DNA from: Pseudofrankia sp. DC12
Lineage (GTDB): Bacteria > Actinomycetota > Actinomycetes > Frankiales > Frankiaceae
DNA: 64,000 nucleotides
NCBI RefSeq assembly: GCF_000966285.1
Contig: NZ_KQ031391.1
Coordinates: 4,884,383-4,948,382 of the forward strand
Direction: 5' to 3'
Under the pieces are notes generated by a model. The model did not search any database. It saw nothing but the letters and a program-made list of their open reading frames with translations, and was not told the DNA's origin. The translations under genes and the position numbers were made by a program. Of this stretch, positions 33,001-60,252 are shown piece after piece; within the stretch, counting starts at the first letter, position 1, and each line of letters begins with the position of its first letter.

Positions 33001-33252
33001 CGGCTGGTCACCGTCACCTACGAAACAGCATCCCCCGCAGGCTTAGCAACACCAGACGAGGTCCGGGCCACAAACCCGGACCCCACCCGCACCCGGGCCA
33101 GGTGTGCACACCGGACCGAGGCAAGCGGCCGGCCCCGGGTACGACACCGACCCGGGCGGGGGCCCGTCAACGCGCCCCTCGGCCCGGAGGACCTGCACGG
33201 GGCCGAGGGGCGCGTTGACGGCCTGACCGCCGGGCCGACGCGTCGCTGGTAG
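27052..33252 (+). CDS. RHS/DUF6531 surface protein, native part ending near 31680
   Basis: Start ATG 27052 follows GGGAGCC. Domains of the native ~1540 residues: basic N-terminus, signal anchor ('VAPLLAVLLVLGGMVVLD'), a DNRLRE-type segment near residue 400 ('SDDTYVSSANSSTTFSSE'), an Ig-like/CARDB-like segment ('QITVRVKNTGQSTWPANGNY'), the DUF6531 start of an RHS core ('VAGVGPALTLSRTYNSRNPT'), two tandem jelly-roll-like repeats beginning 'QNWQVLSGTWGVSANNAYLA' and 'EQWQSGPAYGAGTWGISGNS', then RHS/YD repeats ('YNTDGTVAWREDG', 'YNTRGFLAQVTDENGNTVQT'). After about 31680 the frame is only a GC-driven read-through over two unrelated gene fragments to 33252. The normal RHS C-terminal core and toxin are missing. 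Probably exported. Confidence 0.8.
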   Translation: MTGRHSSASSRPTSFGRRMWLRHARVRRVAPLLAVLLVLGGMVVLDSARPRKIVPIADQNPFKDLKLPQSSSGSAAGQPHDVPTSVTQVGTGQAPSADTLRAGGGQVAGAVPVTADAAPTKVDFSGMTPEQERAAAQPLPAGMAMPAKLAPGVRDPRTVQQGRVEVPGARTASSTAFKNPDGTLTSETTMGPERFKNPQGDWVGIDTTLTGDGKGRFHSKATELALDVAGAANDTQLARVDLGAGMSAGFGLDGAAAAKADVKGFTASFAGVRPSSDLKLYSTAAGLVEVVVLKSVDAPTSWTFPLNLQGLTASMDKYGQVNLLDKDGKRRGLIPQGWMQDSGTSGAAGGPATSTGVTYSLVDGPAKGQVSLRVDLDKDWLAAPERVYPVQMDPPVTWLNPGSDDTYVSSANSSTTFSSEWVLKNGVYNGDVNRSYVHFDGQAQLTNANVLGVDVWLYNWLSAVSCTGNPVSLSEVTQSWDGTTMTWPGASIGSVVAQKSFGHSYNTPCGSDWEDLSDPRLTALVGDWADGVKQNTGLAIQTSNTDGAAFKAFYSASCLCNPADPSTDYRPHMAVTWSPYGAQYSWPSGSPQWSTNVMANSPGQITVRVKNTGQSTWPANGNYKLSYHVYDTSNNELVHQGHVTNVPVAVSRGQTVDIAATVDPLPAGNYVIYFDMEDAGTAWFSDHGITTLGFQAQSYPAVAPQVTGSTPLSGQHVPTLRPVLGLTGSAGGLQYEFQICDQPDAASGNCWGSGGLISAASWKVPAYALQWGKPYYWRGRVSDGTTSSGWTPPIMVFPDVAAPLTGQHFGADPYVPSVASVTPLIGNYTASTTDVSVAGVGPALTLSRTYNSRNPTVGMFGQGWSSPWDMNVAADDSGEGNLVVRYPDGRQGRFGRNWDGTYASQDGYYSVVQAPSPQVASFTAPDSASSLGDADTGQNWQVLSGTWGVSANNAYLAAAGSGSRSVAVMNAPADGLIRFTAPTAQDKIGVAFRVQDADNMWMLYVKPSTSSLVLAKRVVGIESTVATFSGACCAGSDTYAVGMSGPVLTVYRNDRVVGTASDAQFATKTLAGLYASSTGAGRLGSVVMVADADRDSFTRANSTSGLGVTDTGEQWQSGPAYGAGTWGISGNSAYLAAASGNRDLATAPAAADGTFSFTEPTAQAGMGLAFRYGDASNYWRLVAQPAAGTWQLVKRVGGVETTVATSAAGTCCTGTDTLVVTANGPSIAVLRNGTQILSANDTDVLHGTRAGPYAEATGTGRIDNVIMTAATVLTDKTGSGYQFRSDGRLAQVVDVAGRTETLNYDGNAQLNTVASATTGRMLSLTWSGTHVATVSTPSVAAYSGPLTWTYAYSGDQLTSVTGPQSTSPTTYDYAYNGKLGKSTLPNGNVDTIIGYNTDGTVAWREDGLTNRTTFAVLQTTPTTVVRVTDPRGHAEDWEYSTGGQLIRHSDATGTRTFTYNTRGFLAQVTDENGNTVQTDTDDRGNVIARRTARMNLFGTLWVNSEYYGYYAGPPGDPRADKVTTYRDARSSGPTDNTYLTSYRRRSTGRDRAPRRARRVQHRARRFRAGTGDRHHRPSAQFRPPWRLSPARHLRHLPAGRRRAVARPRPRPVHRVRQRRRRRHGPRDRAAGLPGPAHTRQRDGDGRTGAGRRRRQPGRTRPGLPGDRPGPARGLREPGRAAEPAWATRRRRNRCPDGRRPRGSREGRRRPDRGPGRRATASPGHCACPVPPGRGHPSRHRLGDGARRQAGRLRTRLRQRTHPSRALARTARRIHRLHRRQAQRPRRRLPRGSGGATGHDPRRPRRPRTRLGRRKLHRRRTSPPRSLPQRTAPRRSLHHRRGGCHARIPRRLISGGRAVRSAETAGSLTGPRPQRSQVRPRLRDASQPDRAANLTGPGRDLHDLVLRRARPPLPSGRPGTIRGPVCGRPRRRRRRPRRAVDGDRRALGGRQPLRLPADRRDPCDHRGDARAARRRGDRHRAGDQRLVTVTYETASPAGLATPDEVRATNPDPTRTRARCAHRTEASGRPRVRHRPGRGPVNAPLGPEDLHGAEGRVDGLTAGPTRRW
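31703..32605 (+). CDS. DHH-like protein of unknown function, 5' end uncertain
   Basis: 300 aa from a GTG in the +1 frame relative to the RHS gene. 'RRLSFDHHGGCLRLATSATC' and 'YTVYVNDVDADTVLATALLA' hold clustered His/Asp residues that resemble the DHH phosphoesterase pattern. A later 'DVVASRDAHGP' adds another Asp/His. I cannot confirm catalysis. In-frame codons continue upstream to a stop at about 31665 ('PATVVVAPGETVLLDE'), so the start may have been lost when the RHS gene was truncated. C-terminal 'LHPDEVFTIVEAAVTP' looks natural. No partner gene nearby. Confidence 0.6.
   Translation: MLLDELAVYSIALDGFVQGPAIDTTGRRLSFDHHGGCLRLATSATCRQVADALLLGLDPDRYTVYVNDVDADTVLATALLAYPDLLTPGSATATAARALVDVVASRDAHGPAYPVTDPDLLAAFASRVALPNQPGRPGGDETAAQMAADLAVAVRAVVDLIADLAVGRRPAPATVPAPFHPVEVTHRGTGWVMVRDAKLGGFEPAYASGHTRVVLWHEQLDGSTAYTVARRSDLVDDFPVGPAEQPGTILAALAAREPGWGGGSSIGGAPRHHDRSRSALHPDEVFTIVEAAVTPAFHAG
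32732..33046 (+). pseudogene. Gene fragment without a start codon
   Basis: An open stretch of 104 codons begins immediately after a TGA and has strongly protein-like content in this frame only: 'GTYTTWYYDEHGHHYHQADR', 'PYEVLYAGGLADDAAVLDE', 'WTATVGHWAADNPFGYRRID', 'VEVTATELAISGW'. It stops at TAG 33044. No ATG or GTG lies near its beginning, so it is the 3' part of a lost gene. Family unrecognised. Confidence 0.5.
33165..33220. terminator. Very strong hairpin, likely bidirectional terminator
   Basis: Perfect 21-bp inverted repeat: left arm 33165-33185 starting CGTCAACGCGCCCC, right arm 33200-33220 ending GGGGCGCGTTGACG, with a 14-nt loop. It lies downstream of the plus-strand fragment and 87 bp past the end of the convergent lipoprotein gene. 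Confidence 0.75.
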
Positions 33253-40120: not shown

Positions 40121-41332
40121 TCAGCGAATGTGCACTCCAGAGATGGCGCGGGCGATCACGAGCCGCTGGATCTCGGAGGTGCCTTCGAAGATTGTGTAGA
40201 TCTTGGAATCCCGGTACATGCGTTCGACCGGGTGCTCGCGGCTGTAGCCGGCGCCGCCGAGGATCTGGACGGCCTTCTCGGTGACGGTGACGGCGACCTC
40301 GCCGGCCTTCAGCTTGGACATGGAGCCTTCGCCGGCGCCGAACGACCTGTCCTGCTTGCCCATCCAGGCGGCTCGCCAGATCAGCAGGCGGGCGGCGTCG
40401 ATCTCCATCCTCATGTCGGCCAGGGCGAACGCGATCGCCTGGTTCTCGATGATGGGGCGGCCGAACGTCTCGCGGGTCTTGGCGTAGTCGAGCGCGTACT
40501 CGTAGGCGGCGCGGGCGATGCCGACAGCCTGGGCGCCGACGGTCGGGCGGGTGCGTTCGAAGGTCGCCATCGCGCCCTGGCCGCGGGAGTGGCCGCCCTC
40601 GCGGGCCTTGGCCAGTCGGGCGTCGAGCTTGTCCTTGCCGCCGAGCAGGCAGCTGCCGGGGACGCGGACGTCGTCGAAAAAGAGGTCGGCTGTGTGCGAG
40701 GCGCGCAGGCCGAGCTTCTTGATCTTCTTGGCGGCGACCAGGCCGGGGGTGTTCGGCGGGATGACGAACGTGGCCTGGCCGCGGGACCTGAGCCCCGGGT
40801 CGACGGAGGCGACGACGACGTGGACGTTCGCGATGCCGCCGTTGGTGATCCAGGCCTTCTGGCCGTTGATCACCCATTCGTCCGTGGCCTCGTCGTAGCG
40901 GGCCCGGGTGCGCAGCGAGGAGACGTCGGAGCCGGCGCCGGGCTCGGAGACGCAGAACGCGCCCAGCTTCGGGTCGGCCGCGTCGCCGTAGCACTGCGGC
41001 GCCCACTCGACGAGCTGGTCGAGGGTGCCGGCCGACGAGATCCCGGCCGCGGCGAGGCTGCTGCCCATGATGGCCAGGCCGATGCCGGCATCGCCCCAGA
41101 ACAGCTCCTCGGAGGCGATCGGCAGCGACAGGCCGGTCTCGTCGCCGAACATGGTCGCGAGCGAGTCGAAGCCGTAGAGGCCGATCTTGGCGGCCTCCTG
41201 GATGACGGGCCAGGGCGTCTCTTCCCGCTCGTCCCATTCGGAGGCCGCCGGGCGGACGACCTCGGCGGCGAAGCCGTGCACCCAGTCGCGCAGCTCGCTC
41301 TGCTCGTCGGTCAGATCGAGGCTGAAACCCAT
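40121..41332 (-). CDS. Acyl-CoA dehydrogenase
   Basis: 403 aa from ATG 41332, with GGAGGGG upstream. N-domain 'DEQSELRDWVHGFAAEVVRP'; FAD/substrate region 'GAFCVSEPGAGSDVSSL' and 'WVINGQKAWITNGG'; C-terminal catalytic region 'ERMYRDSKIYTIFEGTSEIQ' followed by 'RLVIARAI'. The usual catalytic base of short/medium-chain enzymes is the Glu of the 'IFEGTSE' segment. It oxidises an acyl-CoA to the 2-enoyl-CoA in the cytoplasm. Neighbours are divergent flavoproteins, so the substrate is not given by context. Confidence 0.93.
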   Translation of the reverse strand: MGFSLDLTDEQSELRDWVHGFAAEVVRPAASEWDEREETPWPVIQEAAKIGLYGFDSLATMFGDETGLSLPIASEELFWGDAGIGLAIMGSSLAAAGISSAGTLDQLVEWAPQCYGDAADPKLGAFCVSEPGAGSDVSSLRTRARYDEATDEWVINGQKAWITNGGIANVHVVVASVDPGLRSRGQATFVIPPNTPGLVAAKKIKKLGLRASHTADLFFDDVRVPGSCLLGGKDKLDARLAKAREGGHSRGQGAMATFERTRPTVGAQAVGIARAAYEYALDYAKTRETFGRPIIENQAIAFALADMRMEIDAARLLIWRAAWMGKQDRSFGAGEGSMSKLKAGEVAVTVTEKAVQILGGAGYSREHPVERMYRDSKIYTIFEGTSEIQRLVIARAISGVHIR

Positions 41333-41416
41333 CGCGGTTCGTTCCCCTCCGCTGTGCTCGCGTGGCGCAGACTGGTACCGAACGGTGAGCATACCGACGG
41401 GTAACTTTGGGCGGAA

Positions 41417-41884
41417 GTGGGTGACGGCGAGGTCGAGATGTCGCCGCACGAGGCACGTGCCCGATTCGCCGCCGCCCGGGTCGCGCGGCTCGCGACCGTC
41501 ACGGCCGGGGGAGCGCCCCGGCTCGTACCGATCACCTTCGCGGTGCTGGCCGGTCCGGAGCCCGCCGGCCCGGGCAGCCTGGGGACCGTCGTGACGGCCG
41601 TCGACCACAAGCCGAAACGAACGCAGCGGCTGCGCCGCCTCGACGACATCCGGCGCGAGCCGCGGGTCACCCTGCTCGCGGACGACTACGACGACGACTG
41701 GACCGGCCTGTGGTGGGCGCGGGCCGACGGCCTCGCCCGGGTCGTCGAGCCCACGCATCCAGACCACGCGGTGGCGGTCCGCGCGCTCGCCAGCCGCTAT
41801 CCCCAGTACCGCGAGCGGCCACCGGCCGGGCCCGCGATCTTGATCGTCGTGACCCGGTGGTCCGGCTGGTCCTACGCCCCCTGA
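41417..41884 (+). CDS. PPOX-class F420-dependent oxidoreductase (TIGR03668-like)
   Basis: 155 aa from GTG 41417, split-barrel flavin/F420 fold. Features: 'VARLATVTAGGAPRLVPITF', 'TVVTAVDHKPKRTQRLRRLD', 'DDIRREPRVTLLADDYDDDW', and 'ILIVVTRWSGWSY' at the end, typical of the TIGR03668 group that binds coenzyme F420. Divergent from the acyl-CoA dehydrogenase (84 bp between starts) and convergent with the Acg-type gene (9 bp between stops). Substrate unknown. Confidence 0.9.
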   Translation: MGDGEVEMSPHEARARFAAARVARLATVTAGGAPRLVPITFAVLAGPEPAGPGSLGTVVTAVDHKPKRTQRLRRLDDIRREPRVTLLADDYDDDWTGLWWARADGLARVVEPTHPDHAVAVRALASRYPQYRERPPAGPAILIVVTRWSGWSYAP

Positions 41885-46479: not shown

Positions 46480-46649
46480 CCTGCGTCGGCTCCGCGCGCG
46501 GGGCTGGGAAGATAGCTGATGGCTCGGCTGCTACGGTGCAGGCTTCGCGCCTGTCGCCGATGCGGCCGCCGAACGAGCCAGACACACCAGCCGAGCCCGT
46601 CCGCCCCCGCCGGCCGCGGAGCGTGGGCTCCCAGCCGCGGAGGAGCGCC

Positions 46650-49241
46650 GTGTCGTCGACCCGTGACCCGCGGCTCGCCCGCGAACAGGCCTACCTGGAC
46701 CTGCTCTACTCCCGGCTCGACGAGGTCAGCGACCTCACCCGGCGCCAGCTGCGCCAGGTACTCCTCGAGGTCGGCACCGGGACCCCGCAGTCGGTGGTCG
46801 AACGCGACGTCTTCGCGGCCACCCACGCCGAACGGCTGGCCAGGCTCGAGGCGGCCGAGGGCCGGCTGTGCTTCGGAGCGATGGACCGTTTCGACGGCGC
46901 GCGCACCTACATCGGCCGGATCGGGCTTTCCGACGCCGAGCAGGAGCCGATCCTCGTCGACTGGCGCGCACCGGTCGCCACGGCCTTCTACCAGGCGACG
47001 CTCGCCGACCCGCGCGGGCTGACCCGCCGCCGCCACCTGCGCACCAAGGGCCGCGAGGTAACCGGCGTCGCCGACGACCTGCTCTCCGTCGGCCCTGGCG
47101 AGGCCGGCCGGCCGGCCCCGGACGCCGACGGCCCCGCCCCGGCCGTCGACGCGCCCACCGGCGACACGATGCTGCTGGACGCGCTGTCCGCGCCGCGCAC
47201 CGGCCGGATGGGCGACATCATCGCCACGCTCCAGGCCGAACAGGACCGCATCATCCGGGCCGACGCCCGGTCGGTGCTGGTCGTCGACGGTGGGCCGGGG
47301 ACCGGCAAGACCGCGGTCGCCCTGCACCGGGCCGCCTACCTGCTCTACACCGAGCGGGCCCGCCTGGAGCGCTCCGGCGTCCTCATCGTCGGCCCCAGCC
47401 CGGTCTTCCTGCGTTACATCGACCAGGTGCTGCCGTCCCTCGGCGAGACCGGCGTGGTGTTCGCGACCCCCGGGCGGCTCTACCCTGGCGTCGCGGCGAC
47501 CGCCACCGACCCGGTCGCGGTGGCGGTCCTCAAGGGCGACGAACGGATGGCCGCCGTGCTCGCGGCCGCGGTGCGCGACCACCAGCGGCTGCCGCGCCGG
47601 ACGATCGAGATCCTCCATGACGATGACCGGGTGCTGCGGCTCGACCGGGACACCGTCGCCCGGGCCCGGACCCGGGCCCGGCGCAGCCGCCGGCCGCACA
47701 ACGGCGCCAGGCTGGTGTTCCTGCGCGAGCTGCTGGACGAGCTCACCAGCCAGGTCGTGAAGCAGATCTCCGGCGGGCTGCTCGACGACGACGAGCGCGC
47801 CGACGTCCGCGAGGGCCTCTGGAGCGACCCGGTGGTCCGCCGCGAGCTAGACGCGCTGTGGCCGCGGGTCACGCCGGCGCAGCTGCTGGACCGGCTCTAC
47901 ACCGACCCGAACCTGCTCGCCCGGGCGGTCGCCAGGACCCTGACCCCGGCCGAGCAGGCTTTGCTGCGCCGCGGCGGGCCGGCCAGCTCCGGCGGGCCGG
48001 GGGACCCGGGCACCGCGCCGGCCGGCACCGGCGGTGCGGACCTGTTCAGCGCGCTGGAGGCCGCCGAACGGCCGGCACCGGCGCGCGCTGGCCGGGTCAG
48101 CCGGGTGTGGACGGTGGCGGACGTGCCGTTGCTGGACGAGGCGGCCGAGCTGCTCGGTGACCCGGACGAGGGCAGCCGGGCGGCGGCCGAGGCACGGGCC
48201 GCCCGCGAGCGCGCCGCCGAGATGCGTTACGCCGAGGACGTCCTGGAGATGCTGGGCCTCGCCGGCCAGCTCGACGCCGAAACCGTCGCCGACCGCTGGC
48301 GCGGCCCGCGCCGGCGGGCGAGCGCGGCCGAGCACGGCGCGACCGACCGCGAGTGGGCGTTCGGCCATCTGATCGTCGACGAGGCGCAGGAGGTCTCGCC
48401 GATGCTGTGGCGCCTGCTGTGGCGGCGCTGCCCGGCGCGCAGCGCCACCCTCGTCGGCGACCTCGCCCAGGCGGCCCGCCCGGGTGCCCCCACGAGCTGG
48501 GCGAAGGTCCTCGCCCCGCATGTCGGGGACCGGTTCCGGGTGGAGCGGCTCACCGTCAACTACCGCACGCCCCGGGAGATCATGGACGTCGCCGCCGACG
48601 TGCTGGCGGTGGCCGTGCCCGGCGCGACGCCGCCGGAGTCGGTCCGCTCGGTCGGCGAGAAGCCGCTGGCGATCCGGGCCGGCCTGCCCGGCGGCCAGCC
48701 TGACCAGCGGCAGTTCGGCGGCGGTCCGGCTGACCGGGCCTGGGCCGACCGGGGCCAGGCCGACCGGGGCCAGGCCGACCGGGCTCGGGCCGAGGCGGCT
48801 CTCGTCGACGCGGTCGTCGCGGAGACGATCCGGACGGCCGGGATGATCGGCGAGGGCCGGATCGCCGTGATCACAGCGCCGCCGTCGCTGCCGGCGGTGC
48901 GCGCCGCGCTGTGGCGGGTCGCCCCTGAGCTGCTCGGCGCCGCCGGGAACCCCGACGCCGCCGCCCGGAACGGCGCGAGCTCCCGGACCGGCGCCGCCGC
49001 CAGGAGCGTGGACGGGACGGCCGCGGACGTGCTGGACGCGCGGGTGGCCGTGCTGAGCGTCGCCGACAGCAAGGGCCTGGAGTTCGACGCCGTCCTGCTG
49101 GTCGAGCCGGCGGAGCTGCTCGCCGGGCCGACCCGCGGCCTCGCCGACCTCTACGTCGCGCTGACCCGCGCCACCCGGTCCCTGACCGTCGTGCACACCG
49201 GCGAGCTTCCAGCCGTCCTCGGCCAGCTCGCCGCGGCCTGA
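46650..49241 (+). CDS. HelD/HelR-like RNA polymerase recycling motor (UvrD-type ATPase)
   Basis: 863 aa from GTG 46650, chosen because GGAGGAG lies 5 bases before it; the frame is open to 46536. N-terminal coiled coil ('REQAYLDLLYSRLDEVSDLT'), 1A domain with P-loop 'VVDGGPGTGKTAVALHRAAY', Walker B 'HLIVDEAQEVSPMLWRLLWR', 'RLTVNYRTPREIMDVA', and C-terminal 'SVADSKGLEFDAVLLVEP' and 'DLYVALTRATRSLTVVH'. HelD proteins remove stalled RNA polymerase; HelR members confer rifamycin tolerance. An insertion with three 'ADRGQ'-type repeats near 48730 comes from a 15-bp tandem. I found no rifamycin-associated element upstream. Confidence 0.9.
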   Translation: MSSTRDPRLAREQAYLDLLYSRLDEVSDLTRRQLRQVLLEVGTGTPQSVVERDVFAATHAERLARLEAAEGRLCFGAMDRFDGARTYIGRIGLSDAEQEPILVDWRAPVATAFYQATLADPRGLTRRRHLRTKGREVTGVADDLLSVGPGEAGRPAPDADGPAPAVDAPTGDTMLLDALSAPRTGRMGDIIATLQAEQDRIIRADARSVLVVDGGPGTGKTAVALHRAAYLLYTERARLERSGVLIVGPSPVFLRYIDQVLPSLGETGVVFATPGRLYPGVAATATDPVAVAVLKGDERMAAVLAAAVRDHQRLPRRTIEILHDDDRVLRLDRDTVARARTRARRSRRPHNGARLVFLRELLDELTSQVVKQISGGLLDDDERADVREGLWSDPVVRRELDALWPRVTPAQLLDRLYTDPNLLARAVARTLTPAEQALLRRGGPASSGGPGDPGTAPAGTGGADLFSALEAAERPAPARAGRVSRVWTVADVPLLDEAAELLGDPDEGSRAAAEARAARERAAEMRYAEDVLEMLGLAGQLDAETVADRWRGPRRRASAAEHGATDREWAFGHLIVDEAQEVSPMLWRLLWRRCPARSATLVGDLAQAARPGAPTSWAKVLAPHVGDRFRVERLTVNYRTPREIMDVAADVLAVAVPGATPPESVRSVGEKPLAIRAGLPGGQPDQRQFGGGPADRAWADRGQADRGQADRARAEAALVDAVVAETIRTAGMIGEGRIAVITAPPSLPAVRAALWRVAPELLGAAGNPDAAARNGASSRTGAAARSVDGTAADVLDARVAVLSVADSKGLEFDAVLLVEPAELLAGPTRGLADLYVALTRATRSLTVVHTGELPAVLGQLAAA

Positions 49242-49320
49242 CCAAGGGCCGAAAACTGTCACATACCCGAGTTAGGTTCTCCGGTTGTCAGGTGGACCTA
49301 GCACGGGGGTGGTGGTTCCT

Positions 49321-51432
49321 GTGGCGGAAGACTTCAAAGACTCGCGGGCGGAGGTGTCGGACCCGACAGGGGTGTCGGCGGCGCGGCCGCGGGCGGCGGC
49401 CGGCCCGCGGGTGCCCGCGATCCCAAGGGCGACGGCCTGGCTGCTGGGCCGGCTCACCGGGAGCACGACCGCGCGCCGCAGCGTGCGGTTCTTCGACGAC
49501 GCGGGGCCGCGGCTCGTCGCGATCATCGTGCTGGACCTCGCCGGCGCGCTCTCCTTCGCCGCCGCGCCGTTCATCCTGCGGCACCTTATCGACACCGGCC
49601 TCGCGGCGCCGCACGGGAACTTCGCGCTGATCATCTCGATCGCGGCGCTGCTCGTCGTCGCGCTGTTGCAGGCCGTCGCCAGCGCGATCTCCACGGTGCT
49701 CAGCTCGGGGCTCGGCGAGCTGGTCGGGCAGCGCGCCGGGCAGGCGGTGCACGACCAGCTGTTGCGGGTGCCGTTCGCCTTCTTCCCTGGGCAGCGCCAG
49801 GGCGACCTGTTCACCCTGTTCGGCCAGGACGCCGGCGAGATCGAGACCGCGGTCGCGATGGTGCTGCCGCGCGCGGTGACGACCGCGATCAGCGCGGTCG
49901 TCGGCGTCGCCACGATCGCCGTCCTCGACTGGCGGCTCGCCGCCGTCTCCCTGCTGCTCGCGCCCGGGGTCTTCGCCCTGCTGGCGGTCGGGCGCCGGGA
50001 GGGCCGCAGCCTGTCCGTCGAGCTGATCAAGCTGCGGGTGAAGCACTTCGCCCAGATCAGCGACACGACCGGCGTCTCCGGCGCGCTGCACATCCGGCTG
50101 TTCGGCCGGACCGAGCACGAGTCGAGCCGCTACGCCGAGATCGCCGAAGGCATGCGCCGGACCGCGCAGCGGCGCAACCGGGTGAACGCCCGTGCCGGGC
50201 TCATGTCGTCGGCCGGCTCCGCCGTCGCGGTCGTCATCGTCGTCGGCTTCGGCTCCTGGCTGGTCAGCACCGACCGGGCCACGATCGGGACGCTGCTCGC
50301 CTTCGCGAGCGCTCTCGTGTACGCCTACCGGCCGGTGACCGGGCTGGCCGAGAGCCGGTCGGATCTGCTGGATGCCGGGGTCGCCTTCGAGCGGGTCTTC
50401 GGGCTGCTCGACGTCGACCCGGACGTGCGTGACCTGCCGGTCGTCGGGACCGGGCGGCTCGCCCCCGCGGGGAGGCCGGCGCGACCACCACTGGTGCCCG
50501 AGCAGCCGGGCCAGGCCGGTACCGGCTACACGCGGGCCTGGCGGTCGGCGCCGGAGATCCGGATCGAGAACCTCTGGTTCCGCTACGAACGCGACCCGAA
50601 GTCCGACTGGACCGCGGCCGGCCGTGAGCTCGGCCGGCGCTGGTGGGACGTCCAGGGCGCCGAGGCTGCCGAGAACCAGCGCGAGGAGGCCGAGCTCGCC
50701 GCCGCGGCCAAGGCCGCCGCGGGCGCCGAGCAGGAGTGGGCCCTGCGCGACCTGAACCTCATCGCCGCCGCCGGCGCGAAGACCGCGATCGTCGGGGCGA
50801 GCGGTGCCGGCAAGAGCACGCTCGGCGGTCTGCTCGCCGGTCTCTATCTGGCCACCCGCGGCCAGATCCGCTGCGACGGCGAGGACCTCGCGACGATGGA
50901 CTGGCGGCGGCTGCGCTCGATCGTCGGCGTCGTCCCGCAGGACCCGTACATGTTCCACGACACGATCGCCGCGAACATCCGCTACGGCCGGATCGCCGCC
51001 ACCGACGCGGAGCTGGAGGCGGCCGCGCTCGACGCCGGTCTCGGCTCGTTGCTGGAGAAGCTGCCGAAGCGACTGGCGACGGTCGTCGGCGCGCGGGGCT
51101 ACCAGCTCTCCGGCGGCGAGCGCCAGCGGGTGGCCCTGGCCCGGGTGCTGCTCGCGGACCCGCCGATGCTCGTCCTCGACGAGGCGACCTCCCAGCTCGA
51201 CTCGGTCACCGAGCAGATCGTGCAGGAGGCGCTCGCACGCCTGGGCGTCGGCCGCACCCGGGTGGTGATCGCGCACCGGCTGTCGACCATCGTCGACGCC
51301 GACGTCATCCACGTGATGGCGGACGGACGGGTCGTCGAGTCCGGCAGCCACGACGACCTGCTCGCCCGCGACGGCGCCTACGCCCACCTCTACGCCCGCC
51401 AGCTGGGCGACGACGACCCCGCCCGATCCTGA
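49321..51432 (+). CDS. ABC exporter, fused permease and ATPase
   Basis: 703 aa from GTG 49321 (TTG 49285 also possible). Residues ~40-330: six-helix ABC_membrane domain ('ALIISIAALLVVALLQAVAS', 'VAVVIVVGFGSWLVSTDRA'). NBD: 'IRIENLWFRYERDP', Walker A 'IVGASGAGKSTLGGLL', Q-loop 'GVVPQDPYMF', signature 'YQLSGGERQRVALARVLL', Walker B 'PMLVLDEATSQLDS', switch 'VVIAHRLSTI'. Between 'WFRYERDP' and 'WALRDLNL' is an unusual charged insertion of about 50 residues with an Ala/Glu-rich helix. It would act as a dimer at the membrane. Substrate unknown. Confidence 0.93.
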   Translation: MAEDFKDSRAEVSDPTGVSAARPRAAAGPRVPAIPRATAWLLGRLTGSTTARRSVRFFDDAGPRLVAIIVLDLAGALSFAAAPFILRHLIDTGLAAPHGNFALIISIAALLVVALLQAVASAISTVLSSGLGELVGQRAGQAVHDQLLRVPFAFFPGQRQGDLFTLFGQDAGEIETAVAMVLPRAVTTAISAVVGVATIAVLDWRLAAVSLLLAPGVFALLAVGRREGRSLSVELIKLRVKHFAQISDTTGVSGALHIRLFGRTEHESSRYAEIAEGMRRTAQRRNRVNARAGLMSSAGSAVAVVIVVGFGSWLVSTDRATIGTLLAFASALVYAYRPVTGLAESRSDLLDAGVAFERVFGLLDVDPDVRDLPVVGTGRLAPAGRPARPPLVPEQPGQAGTGYTRAWRSAPEIRIENLWFRYERDPKSDWTAAGRELGRRWWDVQGAEAAENQREEAELAAAAKAAAGAEQEWALRDLNLIAAAGAKTAIVGASGAGKSTLGGLLAGLYLATRGQIRCDGEDLATMDWRRLRSIVGVVPQDPYMFHDTIAANIRYGRIAATDAELEAAALDAGLGSLLEKLPKRLATVVGARGYQLSGGERQRVALARVLLADPPMLVLDEATSQLDSVTEQIVQEALARLGVGRTRVVIAHRLSTIVDADVIHVMADGRVVESGSHDDLLARDGAYAHLYARQLGDDDPARS

Positions 51433-51663
51433 CCAGGCTGGGTGCGGGCCGCGCCCGTCGTCAGCCCGAGACGACGGTTGCGCGCAGCTGACCGCGCAGC
51501 TCGATGATCGCCGCGCCTCCGACGGTCCAGGACCTTTCTGGCCCCCGGCGGCGTCCAGCCGTCGTCGAAGGGTCAGGCACCCAGGTGGTGCCGGGAGGCC
51601 GAGGCTTGGACTCCGTCGCTGCTCTGGGGGAACGGGAGCTGGCTGGTCATCCTCGCGATCGCG

Positions 51664-51991
51664 GTGATCGGCTTCGCGATCAGCATTGACAACCTGTCGC
51701 GAGAACACAGCCAGTTCAGATCGGAGCGGCTGGTCGCCGACCTCGCCTACGCGCTTGTCGCGGTCCAGCTCCTCGTGGCCGTGGCCGTGGTCGTGGTCGC
51801 TTTCGCGCGGGGCTCGGCGCCGGCACCGCGGGCCGTGGGCCGTGGGCGGGTTTGTCCTCGGCGTTGCCGCGCTGGCCAGCATCGCTGCCGGCGGGGGCAC
51901 GACGTGCTCGCGCAGTCGGGAACAACGCTGGTCGCGGGCTCCTACGTGTGGGCGCAGGCCAGGCGGGTCGCTGTCTCGCGCGGCAAAGTAG
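51664..51991 (+). pseudogene. Small membrane protein with a possible frameshift
   Basis: Frame 1: 'ILAIAVIGFAISIDNLSREH' (membrane segment starting before 51664) and 'ALVAVQLLVAVAVVVVAFAR'. Near 51838 the adjacent frame gives another hydrophobic segment, 'WAVGGFVLGVAALASIAAGG', ending at 51991. Together they look like a three-helix protein, but no clear start exists. Alternatively frame 1 alone runs to 52206 as a two-helix protein with a basic tail. Confidence 0.35.
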
Positions 51992-52081
51992 CATCAAAAG
52001 GACACGTACAGATTTCAACCGATTGCACGGCGGCTGCGTTGATAAGGGTGGAAGAGCCTTCCTTCGGTACGAGGAGCGCCA

Positions 52082-53041
52082 TTGCCCGCCGCGCAGTACA
52101 AGCGGTCGCCGCGCGCCGACCGTCCGGCGCCCGAGGACCGCTCCGACCGGCCGGGATGCCCGGACGGCCCCGGCCAGGCCCCGGAGCCCGGCGATCAGGG
52201 CCGTGACAGTGCCAGCCGGTCGGCTGGCACTCGCTCGGCGACCCACCAGGGCCGGACCGGGATCGACCTGCTCGCGCTGCTCGGTGCGCTCTCGGGGCTG
52301 CGGGCTCGCCGTCGCGCCGAGCTGACCCGGTGGTCGCGCCGGGCCGTTGCGATGCTGGTGGTGATCGTCGCTGTGATCGCGTCCGCGGTCGTGCTGCGCG
52401 GCTATCTGCCGGCGGACCCACGGCTGCTGGTGTACGGGGACTCGCTGATGGTCGAGTCGCAGGTGCCCTTCAAGCAGGCGGCCCTGGACGCGGGCGTGCA
52501 CGCGATCGACCTGCGCGCCTGGAGCGGTACCGCCCCCTGCGACTGGGTCGACGACGTGCCGAGCCAGATCCGCGACTTCCGGCCGACCATCGCCATCCTC
52601 GCCTTCTCCGGCAACGAGCCGGCCTGCATGGCCGGCCGTGACCTGCTCACCGGCTACCGCGCGGACGTGACCACGATGGTCGATGAGCTGGTGTCCGCCG
52701 GGGTCCCGGTCCGGTTGGTCGAGGAACCGGCCCGCAAGGTCGAAACGGTCGACGCCTCCGGGCGGACCGAGCTCGGCCGGCTGTGGGCCGCGATCGCCGC
52801 CGCGACGCCGAACACCCGGGTGGTGCGGGCCGACCTCGCGGTGACCGCGGCCGGCCGGTTCGTCCCGTCCCTGCCGTGTGGCCCGGGGGAGCCGTGTGGC
52901 CCGGACGGCCAGATCACCGTCCGGGCCCCCGACGGCGTGCACTTCTGCCCGCATCCCGTCGTGCCGGCCGGGATCTGCGCGGTGTACTCCAGCGGCGCTC
53001 GCCGCTACGGCCTCGCGGTCGCCCGGGGCGCCCTCGGGTGA
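52082..53041 (+). CDS. Membrane-anchored SGNH/GDSL-like protein
   Basis: 319 aa from TTG 52082, supported by GAGGAG 6 bases upstream. Disordered N-terminus (1-~70), one membrane segment ('AVAMLVVIVAVIASAVVL', ~95-113), then an outer SGNH domain: block I 'LLVYGDSLMVESQ' (Ser nucleophile), a block III-like 'ILAFSGNEPAC', and block V 'APDGVHFCP' (Asp-x-x-His). Such domains act as O-acetyl esterases or transferases on cell-surface glycans. The partner acyltransferase is not adjacent. Cys residues in the domain suggest disulphides. Confidence 0.8.
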   Translation: MPAAQYKRSPRADRPAPEDRSDRPGCPDGPGQAPEPGDQGRDSASRSAGTRSATHQGRTGIDLLALLGALSGLRARRRAELTRWSRRAVAMLVVIVAVIASAVVLRGYLPADPRLLVYGDSLMVESQVPFKQAALDAGVHAIDLRAWSGTAPCDWVDDVPSQIRDFRPTIAILAFSGNEPACMAGRDLLTGYRADVTTMVDELVSAGVPVRLVEEPARKVETVDASGRTELGRLWAAIAAATPNTRVVRADLAVTAAGRFVPSLPCGPGEPCGPDGQITVRAPDGVHFCPHPVVPAGICAVYSSGARRYGLAVARGALG

Positions 53042-53609: not shown

Positions 53610-54281
53610 ATGACCCCAACGCTCATTCCGGCCGTGCCGGCCGTGCCGGCCGCCCGGTCCGCCCAGGAGCCGGCGTTCGCGCCGGCGCAGGCCGGCCAGG
53701 CCGAGGCCCGCGACCGGCATGCCCGGCTCTGGCGCAGCGCCGAGCCGACCGGCCAGCCGCGCGGCTCGGTCGTCGTGCTGCCCGGCCGGGGCGAGTCGGC
53801 GGAGATGTTCGAGCAGCTCGCCTTCCGCCTCTCGCTCGACGGCTACGAGGTGGCCTACCTCGGGCCGGGCGAGGACAGCACGCTCGCCCTCGGCGAGTGC
53901 CGGGTCCCCGGCCGGCCGTTCGCGCTGGTCGGCTCGGACACCGGCGCGCTGCGCGCGCTCACCGCCGCCGGCTCGCCGGCGCTGCGCCCCGACGCGCTGG
54001 TGCTGCTCGGACTGCCGCTGCTCTACCGTCCCGTCGCCGGCGAGGTCCCGACCGAGCCGCCGCCGCGGGCGCTGCCCGACCTGCCGATCCTGCTCGTGCA
54101 CGGCGTCGACGACGAGGTCAGCCCGCTGCCCGTCGTGCGGATGACGACCCGCACCGCGCCGCGCGCCCAGCTGGTGACCGTCCCCGGTGGCCACCAGGTG
54201 CTTTCCGACCCGAGCTGGCGCGCCGCCGCGGCCCACACGATCGCGTTCCTCGAGGACGTGGCCAACAGTGCGGCCGTGTAG
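53610..54281 (+). CDS. Alpha/beta hydrolase, compact
   Basis: 223 aa from ATG 53610 with CCAGGAG 5 bases upstream. 'SVVVLPGRGESAEMFEQLAF' holds the oxyanion strand, 'ALVGSDTGALRALTAAG' sits where the nucleophile elbow should be (GSDTG, Ser present but the GxSxG pattern is altered), 'ILLVHGVDDEVSP' has the Asp and 'VPGGHQVLSD' the His. The N-terminal 40 residues are Ala/Pro-rich. Activity plausible but the elbow should be checked. No operon partner. Confidence 0.8.
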   Translation: MTPTLIPAVPAVPAARSAQEPAFAPAQAGQAEARDRHARLWRSAEPTGQPRGSVVVLPGRGESAEMFEQLAFRLSLDGYEVAYLGPGEDSTLALGECRVPGRPFALVGSDTGALRALTAAGSPALRPDALVLLGLPLLYRPVAGEVPTEPPPRALPDLPILLVHGVDDEVSPLPVVRMTTRTAPRAQLVTVPGGHQVLSDPSWRAAAAHTIAFLEDVANSAAV

Positions 54282-54452: not shown

Positions 54453-55712
54453 ATGTCCACGACCGGTGCCGCCGAGGCGGTCGTCTACGCCGCGGTCCGT
54501 ACACCCTGCGGGCGCGGCCGGTCCGGCGGGGCGCTGTACGGCGTCAAGCCGGTGTCCCTGGTCGCGGGCCTGGTCGGCGAGATCCGCGAGCGCAACCCGA
54601 CGCTCGACCTCGACCGGCTCGACGACCTGGTCCTCGGGGTCGCCACCCCGCTCGGTGACCAGGGCGGCGACCTCGCCCGCGCTGCCGCGCTCGTCGCGGG
54701 CCTGCCCGACGATGTCGGCGGCCTCGTCGTCAACCGGATCGGCGCGTCCGGCCTGGAGGCCGTCAACCTGGCCGCCGCCCGGGTCCGCGCCGGCGGCGAC
54801 GCGCTGCTGCTCGCCGGCGGGGTCGAGTCGATGTCCCGGCTGCCGGCAGGCGTCGACGGCGGCCCCTGGGCGAACGACCCGGCGACGAACTACCTGACCC
54901 ACTACGTCCCCCCGGGCGTGGCCGCCGACCTGCTGGCGACCGTCACGGGCCTCACCCGGACGGATCTGGACACCTACGCCGCCCGCTCGCGCCAGCGGGC
55001 CACCGCCGCCTGGGCCGACGGCCGGTTCGACCAGGCCGTCGTCCCGGTGCGTGACCACGGCCTGCCCGTGCTTGACCACGACGAACGGGTCGGTCCCGTC
55101 GGCCCGGGGGAACAGGTGGCGCCCGAGAGGCTCGACGCCGTCGCCGGCTTCCTCGCCCGGCTCGCGCCGGCGTTCACCCAGGCCGGCGAACAGGCCGGCT
55201 TCGACGCGGTCGCGCTGCGGCGCTACCACTGGTTGGAGCGGGTCGAGCACGTCCACACGGCCGGGAACGCGGCCGGCGCGGCCGATGGGGCCGCGCTCGT
55301 CCTGATCGGCGACGCCGAGGTCGGCGCCGAGCTGGGGCTGCGGCCACTGGCCCGGGTGGTCGGGTCCGCGTCGGCGGGGGCGGAGCCGACGCTCGCGCTC
55401 ACCGGCGCCGGGGCCGCGACCCGCAAGCTTCTCGCCCGCACCGGCCTGAGCGTCGCCGACGTCGACCTTTTCGAGGTCGACGAGTCCTACGCCGCCGTCC
55501 CGCTCGCCTACCAGCGCGACCTCGACGTCCCGGACGATCGGCTCAACGTCAACGGCGGCGGGATCGCGCTGGGCCACCCGCTGGGCGCGACCGGCGCGAT
55601 GCTGGTCGCCACCGCCGTGGCCGAGCTGTCCCGCCGCGGCGCCCGCCGGGCCGTCGTCGCGCTGTCCGCGGCCGCGGGCATGGGCGTGGCGACGCTGCTC
55701 GAACGGATCTGA
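54453..55712 (+). CDS. Thiolase-superfamily protein lacking both catalytic cysteines
   Basis: 419 aa from ATG 54453. The fold is clearly thiolase: 'VYAAVRTPCGRGRSGGALYG', 'LLAGGVESMSRLPAG', 'VDLFEVDESYAAVPLAY', and 'NGGGIALGHPLGATGAML' with the conserved His. But the nucleophile motif NRxCxSG reads 'VNRIGASGLEA' (Gly97 in place of Cys), and the C-terminal CxGGG reads 'VALSAAAGMGVA' (Ser405 in place of Cys). Normal thiolysis or Claisen chemistry needs both. It starts a run with the FadJ-like gene 35 bp downstream. Codon use and length are normal, so this is not simple decay. It may bind acyl-CoA, form a complex, or catalyse another reaction. Confidence 0.9.
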   Translation: MSTTGAAEAVVYAAVRTPCGRGRSGGALYGVKPVSLVAGLVGEIRERNPTLDLDRLDDLVLGVATPLGDQGGDLARAAALVAGLPDDVGGLVVNRIGASGLEAVNLAAARVRAGGDALLLAGGVESMSRLPAGVDGGPWANDPATNYLTHYVPPGVAADLLATVTGLTRTDLDTYAARSRQRATAAWADGRFDQAVVPVRDHGLPVLDHDERVGPVGPGEQVAPERLDAVAGFLARLAPAFTQAGEQAGFDAVALRRYHWLERVEHVHTAGNAAGAADGAALVLIGDAEVGAELGLRPLARVVGSASAGAEPTLALTGAGAATRKLLARTGLSVADVDLFEVDESYAAVPLAYQRDLDVPDDRLNVNGGGIALGHPLGATGAMLVATAVAELSRRGARRAVVALSAAAGMGVATLLERI

Positions 55713-55747
55713 CCGACCCAAGCCCCTCGCGATCCGGAGACGAGACG

Positions 55748-57967
55748 ATGCCCGAGCCGATGTCAGCGCCCGTGCGGCCGACGGTCCCGCCGCCGATGGA
55801 GTGGCCCGACCCGGACGGCCCCGCGGCGGCTGCCGACCGGATCGGCGTGATCGGCTGGGAGCGGGACGCCGACGGGATCGTCGTGCTCACCGTCGACGAC
55901 CCGGATCACGCGGCGAACACCACCAACGCGGCGTTCCGCGCGTCGATGGGCGACGTCGTCGGCCGCCTCGAACGGCACCGGGACTCGATCACCGGGGTCG
56001 TCGTGACGTCGGCGAAGAAGACGTTCGTCACCGGGGCCGATCTGCGGGAGCTGGTCCAGCTCGGCCCGGCGGACCGGCTCGCCGCGTTCGAGACGGCCAC
56101 CGCCGTGAAGGACCAGCTTCGCCGGTTGGAGACGCTCGGGCGCCCGGTGGTCGCGGCATTGGGCGGCGCCGCGCTCGGCGGGGGGCTGGAGATCGCCCTC
56201 GCCTGTCACTACCGGATCGCGGCGGACGTGCCCGGCTCCCAGCTCGGCCTGCCCGAGGTCACGCTCGGGCTCGCGCCGTCAGGCGGCGGGATCGTCCGGT
56301 CGGTGCGGCTGCTCGGGGTGCGCAGCGCGCTGGTCAACGTGCTGCTGCACGGCCAGCGGTACAGCCCGGCGCAGGCCCGCGCGCTCGGGCTCGTCGACGA
56401 GCTCGTCGGTTCCGTGGACGAGCTGCTGCCCGCCGCGCGGGCCTGGATTCAGGCGAACCCGGACGCGGCCGCCCGCTGGGACGTGCCGGGCTATCAGGTT
56501 CCCGGCGGCGGGGCGGCACTGGCCGCCGCGCTGCCGGCGCTGCCGGCCGGGCTGCGCCGCCAGGCCGCCGCCGAGGGCGCGCCGGCGGGGCCGGCGATCC
56601 TGGCCGCGGCGGTCGAGGGCGCCCAGGTCGACGTCGAGACGGCCTCGGTCATCGAGTCGCGGTACTACGCCGAGCTGGTGACCGGCCCGGTGGCGACGAA
56701 CATGATCAAGGCCTTCTACTTCGACCTCGGGCGGATCGGGACGGCCGTCCGGCCGGCCGGGCAGCCGCCGGTCGTCGCGCGGACGGCCGCTGTCCTCGGA
56801 GCCGGGCCTACCGGCGCCGCGCTCGCGTACGCGCTCGCCAAGGCCGGGGTCGACGTCGTCCTCACCGACGCGACGGCCGAGGCGGCCGCGCTGGGCAAGG
56901 GCTACGCCGAGCGGATCGTCGCCGACGCGGTGCGCCGGGGCAGCATCCGGCCACCGGCCGGCGAGGCACTGCTCGCCCGCATCACGCCGAGCGCGGACCA
57001 GGCCGCGCTGGCCGGCGCGGACGTCGTCATCGAGGCGACCGACCCGGCCGGTCCCGCCGCGGCCGTCACGCTGACCGCGGCGCGGGCCGCCGTGCCGGGC
57101 GCGCTGCTGTGCGTCGCCTCGGCCGCACCGCTGGCGGACCAGCACCCGGCCGGCGCCGACGAGGCGTCCGATGTCGTCGGCCTGTGGCTGGGCGGCCCGG
57201 CGGACCGGACTTCACTCGTCGAGATCGTCGTCGGCGGGCGGACCGGCGACGCCGCACTGGCCCGGGCGATCGACCTGGTCACCCAGCTGCGCAAGACCCC
57301 GATCGTCGTGCATGAGGCCGCCGCCGGGGGCTTCGGCGGCTCGTTCGTCGGCCGGCTGCTCGGGGCGTTCGCCGCCGAGGGAGCCGCGATGGTCGGGGCC
57401 GGGATACCAGCCGCGTCGGTCGAGCAGGCCGGCGCGCAGGCCGGCTTCCCGTCATCCCCGCTGCGGCTGCTCGACGAGCTGACCGGGCCGGCCGTCCGAG
57501 CCGCGCTGCCCGACGAGGACGCGGGCGGCGCGGCGGCGGTGCTCGACCGGATGGCCGAGCTCGGCCGGCCGGGACGCCCCGGTGGCGCCGGTTTCTACGA
57601 CTATGCCGACGGGCGCCCGACCGGCCTGTGGCCAGGCCTGCGGGACCGGTTCGGCGGCAAGCTCGACCCGGCGCGGATCGCGTTCGACGAGCTGGTCGAA
57701 CGGCTGCTGGTCGCGGTGGCGCTGGCCGGGGCCCGGGCGCTGGCGGACGGCGTGGTGCGCACGGTGGCGGAGACCAACATCGGCTCGCTCACCGGCGCCG
57801 GGTTCCCGGCCTGGACCGGCGGCGTGCTCGGCTACGTCAACGGCTTCGCCGGCGGCCCGGCCGGCTTCGTCGCCCGCGCCGGCGAGCTGGCGACCAGGTA
57901 CGGCGAGCGGTTCGCGCCGCCGGCCTCCCTCGTCGAGCGCGCCGACCGCGGCGAGCTGTACGACTGA
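55748..57967 (+). CDS. FadJ/FadB-like protein: intact hydratase half, dehydrogenase half lacking catalytic residues
   Basis: 739 aa. Residues ~40-250 are enoyl-CoA hydratase: oxyanion 'KTFVTGADLREL', Glu in 'GGGLEIALACHYRIA', Glu in 'LGLPEVTLGLAPSGGG'. Residues ~345-640 are the 3-hydroxyacyl-CoA dehydrogenase: NAD motif 'AVLGAGPTGAALAYALAKAG' kept (GxGxxG). But the HFFNP motif reads 'VVGLWLGGPADRTSLVEIVV' (catalytic His replaced by Trp480) and the FxxNR motif reads 'GSFVGRLLG' (Asn replaced by Gly535). So crotonase activity is expected, hydroxyacyl oxidation is not. Stands 35 bp after the thiolase homologue, as in fadBA-type operons. ATG 55748 has GGAG upstream. Confidence 0.9.
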   Translation: MPEPMSAPVRPTVPPPMEWPDPDGPAAAADRIGVIGWERDADGIVVLTVDDPDHAANTTNAAFRASMGDVVGRLERHRDSITGVVVTSAKKTFVTGADLRELVQLGPADRLAAFETATAVKDQLRRLETLGRPVVAALGGAALGGGLEIALACHYRIAADVPGSQLGLPEVTLGLAPSGGGIVRSVRLLGVRSALVNVLLHGQRYSPAQARALGLVDELVGSVDELLPAARAWIQANPDAAARWDVPGYQVPGGGAALAAALPALPAGLRRQAAAEGAPAGPAILAAAVEGAQVDVETASVIESRYYAELVTGPVATNMIKAFYFDLGRIGTAVRPAGQPPVVARTAAVLGAGPTGAALAYALAKAGVDVVLTDATAEAAALGKGYAERIVADAVRRGSIRPPAGEALLARITPSADQAALAGADVVIEATDPAGPAAAVTLTAARAAVPGALLCVASAAPLADQHPAGADEASDVVGLWLGGPADRTSLVEIVVGGRTGDAALARAIDLVTQLRKTPIVVHEAAAGGFGGSFVGRLLGAFAAEGAAMVGAGIPAASVEQAGAQAGFPSSPLRLLDELTGPAVRAALPDEDAGGAAAVLDRMAELGRPGRPGGAGFYDYADGRPTGLWPGLRDRFGGKLDPARIAFDELVERLLVAVALAGARALADGVVRTVAETNIGSLTGAGFPAWTGGVLGYVNGFAGGPAGFVARAGELATRYGERFAPPASLVERADRGELYD

Positions 57968-58128: not shown

Positions 58129-59301
58129 ATGACGTCTGCCGCCGCACACCCGACGGGTCCGCTCGCCGGGCTGCGGGTGGTCGAGCTCGCCGGGATCGGG
58201 CCGGGCCCGCATGCCGCGATGGTGCTCGCCGACCTCGGCGCCGACGTGGTCCGGGTGGAGCGGCCGGCGACCGGCGGCGCGATCCCCGGCGCCCCGGCCA
58301 CCGGTGACCACCTGCTGCGCGGCCGGCGCTCCGTGGCCCTCGACCTCAAGGACGCCGCCGGCAAGGAACGGCTGCTCGCCCTGGTCGAGCGGGCCGACGT
58401 GCTGATCGAGGGCTACCGCCCCGGAGTGGCCGAACGGCTCGGCGTCGGGCCCGACGTGTGCCTGGGCCGTAACCCGCGCCTGGTCTACGGCCGGATGACC
58501 GGCTGGGGCCAGGACGGCCCGTGGGCGCACACGGCCGGCCACGACCTGAACTACATCTCCGTCACGGGCGTGCTGCACGCGATCGGGCCGAAGGACGGCA
58601 AGCCGGTCGTCCCGCTCAACCTCGTCGGCGACTTCGGCGGCGGCTCGATGTTCCTGCTCACCGGCATCCTCGCGGCGCTGTGGGAGCGGGAGCGTTCGGG
58701 CGCGGGCCAGGTCGTCGACGCGGCGATGGTCGACGGCGCCAGCGTGCTCGCGCAGATGATGTGGGCCTGGCGGGCCACCGGCTTCTGGTCCGACGAGCGC
58801 GGCACCAACGTCCTGGACGGTGGCGCGCCCTACTACGACACCTACGTGTGCGCCGACGGCCGGCACGTCGCGGTCGGCGCGATCGAGCCGCAGTTCTACG
58901 CCGCGCTGCTCGCGGGCCTCGGCCTCGCCGGCGACGCCGGGCTGCCGGGGCAGAACGACCGCGCGGGCTGGCCCGCACTGCGCGCCCGGCTCGCGGCGAC
59001 GTTCCTGACCAGGACCAGGGACGAATGGGCAGCCGTGTTCGACGGCACCGACGCCTGCGTCACCCCGGTGCTGACGTTCGCCGAGGCCACGACGCATCCG
59101 CACCTGGTCGCGCGGGGCACGCTGATGACGCTCGACGGCGTCCGGCAGCCGGCGCCCGCGCCCCGGTTCTCCCGGACCGTGGCGGCCGTGCCGTCTTCGC
59201 CGCCGGTGACGGGTGGCGACACCGAGGCGGTCCTCGCCGACTGGCTCGGCGCTTCGGCGGTTTCCGCTGGTTCGGCGGAGGTGCCCGGGTTGTCCTCCTG
59301 A
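58129..59301 (+). CDS. CaiB/BaiF family III CoA-transferase or acyl-CoA racemase
   Basis: 390 aa from ATG 58129 with GAAGGAG upstream. '[20 protein letters not shown]' opens the family III fold, '[15 protein letters not shown]' follows, and '[20 protein letters not shown]' carries the His/Asp pair that acts in alpha-methylacyl-CoA racemases (GHDxNY). '[20 protein letters not shown]' supports the racemase branch over transferases. It would interconvert 2R/2S-methylacyl-CoA. It follows the FadJ-like gene by 161 bp in the same direction, fitting branched-chain or steroid-side-chain acyl-CoA degradation. Confidence 0.9.
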
Positions 59302-59487: not shown

Positions 59488-60252
59488 GTGGAGATAGCGG
59501 GCGCGACAGCGGTCGTCACCGGCGGCGCGTCGGGGCTGGGCCTGGCGACGGCCAAGCGGTTGCACAAGGCTGGCGCGAGCGTCGTCCTGCTCGACCTGCC
59601 GGCCAGCGCGGGCGAGAAGGCCGCGACCGAGATCGGCGAGCGGGCCCGGTTCGCCCCGGCGGACGTCACCGACGCCGCCGCGGTCACTGCGGCCCTCGAC
59701 CTGGCCGAGGAACTGGGCGCGCTGCGGGTGGTGGTCAACTGCGCGGGCATCGGGCCGCCGACCCGGGTGCTCGGGCGTAGTGGCGTGCACCCGCTGGAGG
59801 CCTTCGCCAAGGTGATCAACGTCAACCTGGTCGGGTCGTTCAACGTGCTGCGCCTGGGCGCGGAGCGGATCGCCCGAGCTGAGCCGCTTCCGGGCAACGA
59901 GCGCGGAGTCATCGTCAACACGGCGTCGGTCGCCGCGTTCGACGGTCAGATCGGTCAGGCCGCCTACTCGGCGTCCAAGGGCGGAATCGTCGGCATGACG
60001 CTGCCGATCGCCCGCGACCTCGCTGACAAGCTGATCCGGGTGGTGACCATCGCTCCCGGCCTGTTCAAGACGCCGCTGCTGGCGAGCCTGCCGGAGGCCG
60101 CTCAGGAGTCGCTGGGCAGCCAGACCCCGCATCCCAGCCGGCTGGGCGACCCGGACGAGTACGCCGCCCTGGTTGAGCACATCGTCGCCAACCCGATGCT
60201 CAACGGCGAGGTCATCCGCCTCGACGGCGCCATCCGGATGGCCCCGCGTTAG
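59488..60252 (+). CDS. SDR, HSD10-like 3-hydroxyacyl-CoA dehydrogenase
   Basis: 254 aa from GTG 59488 (GGCGGAG upstream; the open frame to 59368 is not protein-like). NAD site '[17 protein letters not shown]', '[11 protein letters not shown]' (NAG), Ser in '[14 protein letters not shown]', '[13 protein letters not shown]' (YxxxK), '[14 protein letters not shown]'. The pattern is that of HSD17B10-type enzymes that oxidise 3-hydroxy-2-methylacyl-CoA. It is last in the acyl-CoA run and could supply the dehydrogenase activity that the FadJ-like protein seems to lack. Confidence 0.92.

Follow-up and report, generated by a model that had tools for sequence, protein, structure and literature searches.

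A FadA-FadB pair of Pseudofrankia with a retained hydratase site and replaced thiolase and dehydrogenase sites

Introduction

The trifunctional enzyme of Mycobacterium tuberculosis (MtTFE), formed by FadA (Rv0859, beta subunit) and FadB (Rv0860, alpha subunit), combines enoyl-CoA hydratase, 3-hydroxyacyl-CoA dehydrogenase and thiolase activities. PMC11301753 describes the thiolase dimer as the core of the tetramer in known enzymes, and names Glu119 and Glu141 as catalytic in the hydratase. MtTFE is the closest solved relative, over nearly the full length of both proteins, of a FadA-FadB pair encoded in the 64,000-nucleotide stretch of the Pseudofrankia sp. DC12 genome that we analyzed (contig NZ_KQ031391.1, positions 4,884,383 to 4,948,382; hereafter the window). 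The two systems have the same domain order and share the hydratase glutamates, with identities of ~53% for FadA and ~50% for FadB. Unlike in MtTFE, however, the residues corresponding to Cys92, to the second thiolase cysteine and to the dehydrogenase His462 are replaced, and three sister genomes lack the NAD-binding domain of FadB.

The same two sites have been inactivated together in the laboratory, in the alpha-H462A, beta-C92A mutant of MtTFE that, by the title of PDB entry 7o1m, was crystallized, and which is left with its hydratase. The loss described here differs in being natural, in affecting more residues and in being common to a clade, and here the complex is a predicted one. Steroid catabolism offers a second comparison: aldolases of thiolase fold there have a hydratase as partner and require no cysteine pair and no dehydrogenase (PMC12329534). 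Shy-Sal and ChsH1-ChsH2-Ltp2 thus resemble the window pair in joining a hydratase to a thiolase-fold partner without the thiolase cysteine pair (PMC12329534). Their hydratase, however, is of the MaoC type with DUF35 (PMC11321319), and the Ltp2/Sal aldolases carry YDHF or YDCY (PMC12329534) where the window protein has DESY, with no DUF35 in nine scanned neighbors. Two genes downstream of the pair have Mcr (Rv1143) and Rv1144/HSD10 as their best solved matches; unlike those genes, the homologs here follow a reduced FadA-FadB pair. Rv1143 and Rv1144 are, we assume, adjacent in M. tuberculosis.

Results

Replacement of the thiolase site in FadA

The fadA and fadB reading frames are both long and clean. 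HMMER alignment places Gly97 of FadA opposite beta-Cys92 of MtTFE and Ser405 opposite the second cysteine, bearing out the first-pass annotation of this DNA, which had proposed these two residues as substitutes for the thiolase cysteines. Both columns are Cys in 50/50 canonical rows, a set that excludes the altered loci and nine others (L092 and eight partial loci) whose visible motifs are canonical. The chains of the MtTFE C92A and H462A mutants have Ala in the columns aligned to Gly97 of FadA and Trp480 of FadB. An alignment error concealing the cysteines was considered and rejected, the pairwise alignments being gap-free through the motifs.

Our comparison set for the genus comprises eight genomes (G000-G007), several of them drafts, seven of which encode an altered FadA. 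The NEAF loop is changed to DESY in the window protein, with Asp343 at a position that is Asn in 50/50 canonical rows; across the seven altered proteins the motif is DESY in five, DEAY in one and NEPF in G007. The His of the GHP loop (H375) is retained in 7/7, and the otherwise invariant Ser273 and Ser274 of the GNSSG loop, which we take to be CoA-binding, are partly lost. FadA scores 325.6 bits with the TIGR01930 profile, above the cut-off of 240.55, and 508.1 with NF006090, slightly below 514.

A conserved hydratase and a broken dehydrogenase in FadB

Both hydratase glutamates of FadB, Glu148 (GGGLE) and Glu170 (GLPE), are intact, as had been claimed, and correspond by alignment to Glu119 and Glu141 of MtTFE. 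The proposed loss of the dehydrogenase His also holds: Trp480 aligns with alpha-His462, and this column is His in 53/53 canonical FadB rows, compiled with the same exclusions as for FadA. The further proposal that Gly535 replaces a catalytic Asn is wrong, because canonical relatives already carry Ser. Column 483 (HFFSP) is Ser in 53/53 canonical rows, and around column 535 the canonical actinobacterial sequence is mostly GFFTSRVI, with Ser in the presumed Asn column. The GxGxxG motif for NAD binding is present in the window protein as GAGPTG, and the SNTS motif of the dehydrogenase is lost in altered FadB. Changes at family-invariant positions are unevenly spread, affecting 3/46 in the hydratase, 2/18 in the linker, 27/65 in the NAD domain and 12/53 in the C-terminal part (hydratase versus NAD domain, Fisher p 3e-5).

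An in-frame deletion has removed ~180 residues, corresponding to the NAD domain, from the FadB proteins of G004, G005 and G006, and the sequence continues through the hydratase and C-terminal domains. The ends of this deletion, within residues 331-532, can be placed only approximately, as ~20 linker residues are scattered by the aligner. The first-pass annotation had missed this deletion, the loss of SNTS and the change from NEAF to DESY. The domain-deleted proteins (L103, L104, L105) also bear low-complexity additions, namely a Ser/Glu/Ala-rich N-terminus and Ala/Glu- and Gly/Asp/Asn-rich inserts after residues 585 and 640.

Distribution and phylogeny

The locus is present in 8/8 genomes of the genus, with the altered pair at the same place in 7/8 and both cysteines absent from all seven altered FadA. 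G000, G001 and G002 have a full-length pair with a broken dehydrogenase domain, and G004, G005 and G006 combine a cysteine-less FadA with a FadB lacking the NAD domain. The cysteines of G007 are changed to Asp and Gly, its dehydrogenase His is kept, SNTST reads SGTAG, and its contig stops after fadB. The hydrolase gene of G003 directly adjoins the racemase gene, with no fadA or fadB detected between them by tblastn; this genome has two canonical FadB genes elsewhere. A canonical FadA of the same type is found elsewhere in 2/8 genomes (G003 and G004). The source genome of the window, a single contig of 6.88 Mb, has a second FadA/FadB pair at 5.82 Mb in which all catalytic motifs are present by eye, and encodes further thiolases.

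In the FadA tree all seven altered proteins group together (support 100/100), with a canonical protein of G021 as their sister, and the tree of the FadB hydratase part agrees on a single clade (Shimodaira-Hasegawa-like approximate likelihood ratio test 99, quick method). Among named relatives, the closest found is Frankia sp. AgB1.9 (L056), with an 87% identical FadB. Beyond the genus, no altered pair was found among 63 FadA loci examined from a class-level search, taken from the 150 of 393 genomes that gave matches and made up of 23 of the best-scoring and 40 hand-picked among the matches listed; the C-N-H-C tetrad is present in 63/63, at least six of which are genes already in our earlier comparison. 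We found no report of such a pair in the open-license PMC literature as judged from titles and the starts of abstracts, a search outside which subscription papers mostly lie.

These comparisons indicate that loss of the thiolase active site predates the divergence of the sampled members of the genus, that the dehydrogenase site was broken or the NAD domain lost later and on separate branches, and that the hydratase site and remaining scaffold stayed constrained during these losses. The coordinated loss recognized by the first-pass annotation is thus old and common to the clade. Close homologs with the normal residues were looked for and not found, and a recent point mutation confined to the source genome was rejected, the changes being common to sister genomes.

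Selection and active-site conservation

Within each lineage purifying selection acts on the dead thiolase to an extent comparable to that on the racemase and on the HSD10-like short-chain dehydrogenase/reductase (SDR) encoded downstream. The ratio of nonsynonymous to synonymous substitution rates (dN/dS), calculated by the Nei-Gojobori method and therefore rough for these very GC-rich genes, is 0.13-0.17 for fadA among G000-G002 and 0.16-0.22 among G004-G006, with upper confidence limits of 0.21-0.32 within lineages. In the same two groups the racemase gives 0.10-0.16 and 0.16-0.21, the SDR 0.06-0.13 and 0.15-0.19, the FadB hydratase domain 0.15-0.17 and 0.31-0.34, and the C-terminal part of FadB 0.16-0.35 and 0.37-0.42; the FadB NAD domain gives 0.21-0.43. 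The method is not uniformly low, since the fast-evolving DUF459 gene (52316-53041), which lies among conserved neighbors, reaches 0.9 (G004 vs G005).

Across lineages the hydratase site is conserved and the thiolase and dehydrogenase sites are released. Between G000 and G004-G006 the thiolase core has an identity of 0.68-0.71, compared with 0.72-0.74 in the remainder of the protein, and no canonical pair at the same background has a thiolase core as low (0/292, 0/405 and 0/483; minimum 0.84). The hydratase core in these comparisons is at 0.91, inside the canonical range (7/44, 9/47 and 5/38 as low). The dehydrogenase core of G000 vs G007 is at 0.55, where the canonical minimum is 0.78 (72 pairs).

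Predicted structures

Single-chain models of FadA and FadB have mean predicted local distance difference test (pLDDT) scores of 89.2 and 83.8, respectively, the latter lower near residues 431-480. MtTFE is the best PDB match of both, with a template modeling (TM) score of 0.93 for the FadA fold. Both folds are therefore predicted to be intact, in line with the first-pass annotation.

The locus and its surroundings

The genes run in the order DUF459 protein, small alpha/beta hydrolase, fadA, fadB, methylacyl-CoA racemase and HSD10-like SDR (Table 1), followed by a convergent MFS efflux pump and a TetR regulator. The HSD10-like SDR, to which attention had already been drawn, adjoins in 7/7 genomes whose contig extends that far. 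In 16/37 named canonical loci, strand disregarded, the region upstream of canonical fadA also holds a racemase-like match (55-60% identical).

Table 1. Features of the altered FadA-FadB locus, in window coordinates
Feature	Position	Strand	Evidence
Small alpha/beta-hydrolase-like gene upstream, start codon inferred	53610..54281	+	Pfam Hydrolase_4; present in 8/8 genomes of the genus
fadA-like gene, 419 aa, thiolase fold without catalytic cysteines, putative non-catalytic beta subunit	54453..55712	+	Pfam Thiolase_N and Thiolase_C; 53% identity to MtTFE beta in structure match; Cys columns replaced
Gly97 codon, position of nucleophilic Cys of the CxS loop	54741..54743	+	Alignments
Codons 343-346, DESY replacing NEAF	55479..55490	+	Alignments
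Ser405 codon, position of acid/base Cys of the CxG loop	55665..55667	+	Alignments
fadB-like gene, 739 aa, alpha subunit, hydratase kept, dehydrogenase site lost	55748..57967	+	Pfam ECH_1, 3HCDH_N, 3HCDH; ~50% identity to MtTFE alpha
Enoyl-CoA hydratase domain of FadB, residues 34-235, with Glu148 and Glu170	55847..56452	+	3/46 family-invariant positions changed; glutamates kept
Degenerate NAD-binding (Rossmann) domain of FadB, residues 346-525, Trp480 replacing catalytic His	56783..57322	+	27/65 family-invariant positions changed; matching region absent in G004-G006
C-terminal dehydrogenase domains of FadB	57323..57964	+	Retained even in genomes without the NAD domain
Alpha-methylacyl-CoA racemase (Mcr/AMACR type)	58129..59301	+	Best solved relatives are alpha-methylacyl-CoA racemases, E 1e-155 to 1e-153
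HSD10-like short-chain 3-hydroxyacyl-CoA dehydrogenase	59488..60252	+	Best solved relatives are Rv1144 and type II 3-hydroxyacyl-CoA dehydrogenases

The small alpha/beta hydrolase has only weak matches in the PDB, and in 8/8 genomes of the genus GSDTG replaces the usual GxSxG nucleophile elbow; we presume that this may supply a nucleophilic Asp like that of dehalogenases. On the minus strand, ~13 kb from fadA-fadB, lies an acyl-CoA dehydrogenase gene (40121-41767) that may be a source of enoyl-CoA. The stretch between an AAA-domain gene and the DUF459 gene (46536-53041) is variable across genomes, holding an ABC exporter here and other or additional genes in G003-G007, one product of which is presumably DUF262-like. 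A reading frame of 2118 aa is open at 26896-33252, with DUF6531, which we take to be an Rhs-type domain, as the sole domain recognized by Pfam.

Discussion

We favor, with a probability of about 0.6, the interpretation that this FadA-FadB pair, a natural, reduced descendant of the actinobacterial, Mycobacterium-type trifunctional enzyme, forms a hydratase-only complex on a non-catalytic thiolase scaffold. The pair would still assemble into an alpha2beta2 tetramer whose structural core is the cysteine-less thiolase dimer, and would catalyze the hydration of 2-enoyl-CoA alone; among these Frankia-like bacteria the complex probably acts as a one-step hydratase borne by a dead partner protein. More tentatively, the 3-hydroxyacyl-CoA product may be oxidized by the adjoining HSD10-like SDR and then cleaved by a different thiolase of the same genome. 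The racemase neighbor might further hint at alpha-methyl-branched acyl-CoA substrates, a fair guess given the families to which the SDR (3-hydroxyacyl-CoA dehydrogenase) and the racemase (alpha-methylacyl-CoA) belong.

A hydratase on a thiolase-like scaffold was one of two possibilities raised by the first-pass annotation, and retention of the hydratase site with loss of the other two supports it at the level of sequence. The alternative raised there, a new CoA-ester reaction, finds no support here: between lineages, what used to be the thiolase pocket is conserved no more than the remainder of the protein, which speaks for a scaffold. Since the MtTFE mutant without His462 and Cys92 was crystallized (7o1m, title), loss of both sites is compatible with a folded complex. 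Known enzymes of this kind are built around their thiolase dimer, so assembly could be a reason to retain a catalytically dead one.

The earlier judgment that this is not ordinary decay stands, and an ordinary pseudogene is disfavored by the open frames (7/7) and by the fadA dN/dS of 0.13-0.22 within lineages. A subtler version, in which a functionless pair is being lost stepwise as a slowly decaying relic, would account for the gradation among the genomes, in which the pair of G007 is partly altered, others are altered at full length or lack the domain, and G003 has no pair, and for the low-complexity insertions in FadB of G004-G006. We nevertheless consider it unlikely, given the intact frames, the confidence limits on fadA dN/dS, the conserved hydratase core and the maintained gene order. 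A purely non-enzymatic or regulatory role, in which the complex binds acyl-CoA or organizes the racemase and SDR, would fit the conserved gene order with these two genes and the retained thiolase fold. It appears the least probable of the alternatives, for it has no need of the two hydratase glutamates, both kept, and Ser273/Ser274 of the GNSSG loop are partly lost.

The remaining alternative is a hydratase/retro-aldolase complex, in which the thiolase-fold subunit, with Asp343 for the Asn of NEAF, would cleave 3-hydroxyacyl-CoA directly and render the dehydrogenase and the cysteines superfluous. The loss of both thiolase and dehydrogenase sites is what aldolase chemistry predicts, the GHP His is retained in all seven proteins, and NEAF has become DESY or DEAY in six of the seven. 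The HDCF motif of SCP-2 thiolases presumably corresponds to NEAF of other thiolases. It is at HDCF that the known aldolases are remodeled (YDHF, YDCY), according to PMC12329534. The first position of the altered motif is not Tyr, however, and N and F are both kept in G007; pocket identity between lineages does not exceed that of the rest; a Pfam scan found no DUF35 among the nine neighboring proteins, the remainder of the genome not having been searched for it; and the adjoining SDR would have no need to be there. On balance we think an aldolase improbable, slightly more so than the relic.

Several observations count against the hydratase-only complex that we prefer. The hydratase domain of G004-G006 has a higher dN/dS (0.31-0.34) than their dead thiolase (0.16-0.22) and, between distant lineages, the ratio rises to 0.34-0.44 for fadA and to 0.78 for the NAD domain (G000-G007). 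The hydratase cores of G000 and G005 are at only 0.85 and 0.82 identity to that of G007, near the low end of the canonical range (3/60 and 2/67 as low), and all core comparisons use residue lists chosen after the changes had been seen. The alpha subunit of MtTFE has also been solved by itself (PDB 7o4u), so alpha may not need beta. The pair is also dispensable in G003, which has lost it altogether.

For annotation, the locus is a warning that a score above the TIGR01930 cut-off can label a protein acetyl-CoA acyltransferase despite the loss of both catalytic cysteines. Were the aldolase explanation true, the pair would represent a second, separate origin of Shy-Sal-like chemistry in a different thiolase family, and a new route from thiolase to aldolase. 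More broadly, the genomes of the genus form a natural gradation in the loss of two of the three activities of a multienzyme complex, including, in three genomes, the in-frame loss of a whole catalytic domain while the dead thiolase stays under purifying selection. This opens to experiment the question whether the thiolase dimer contributes structurally to trifunctional enzymes independently of catalysis.

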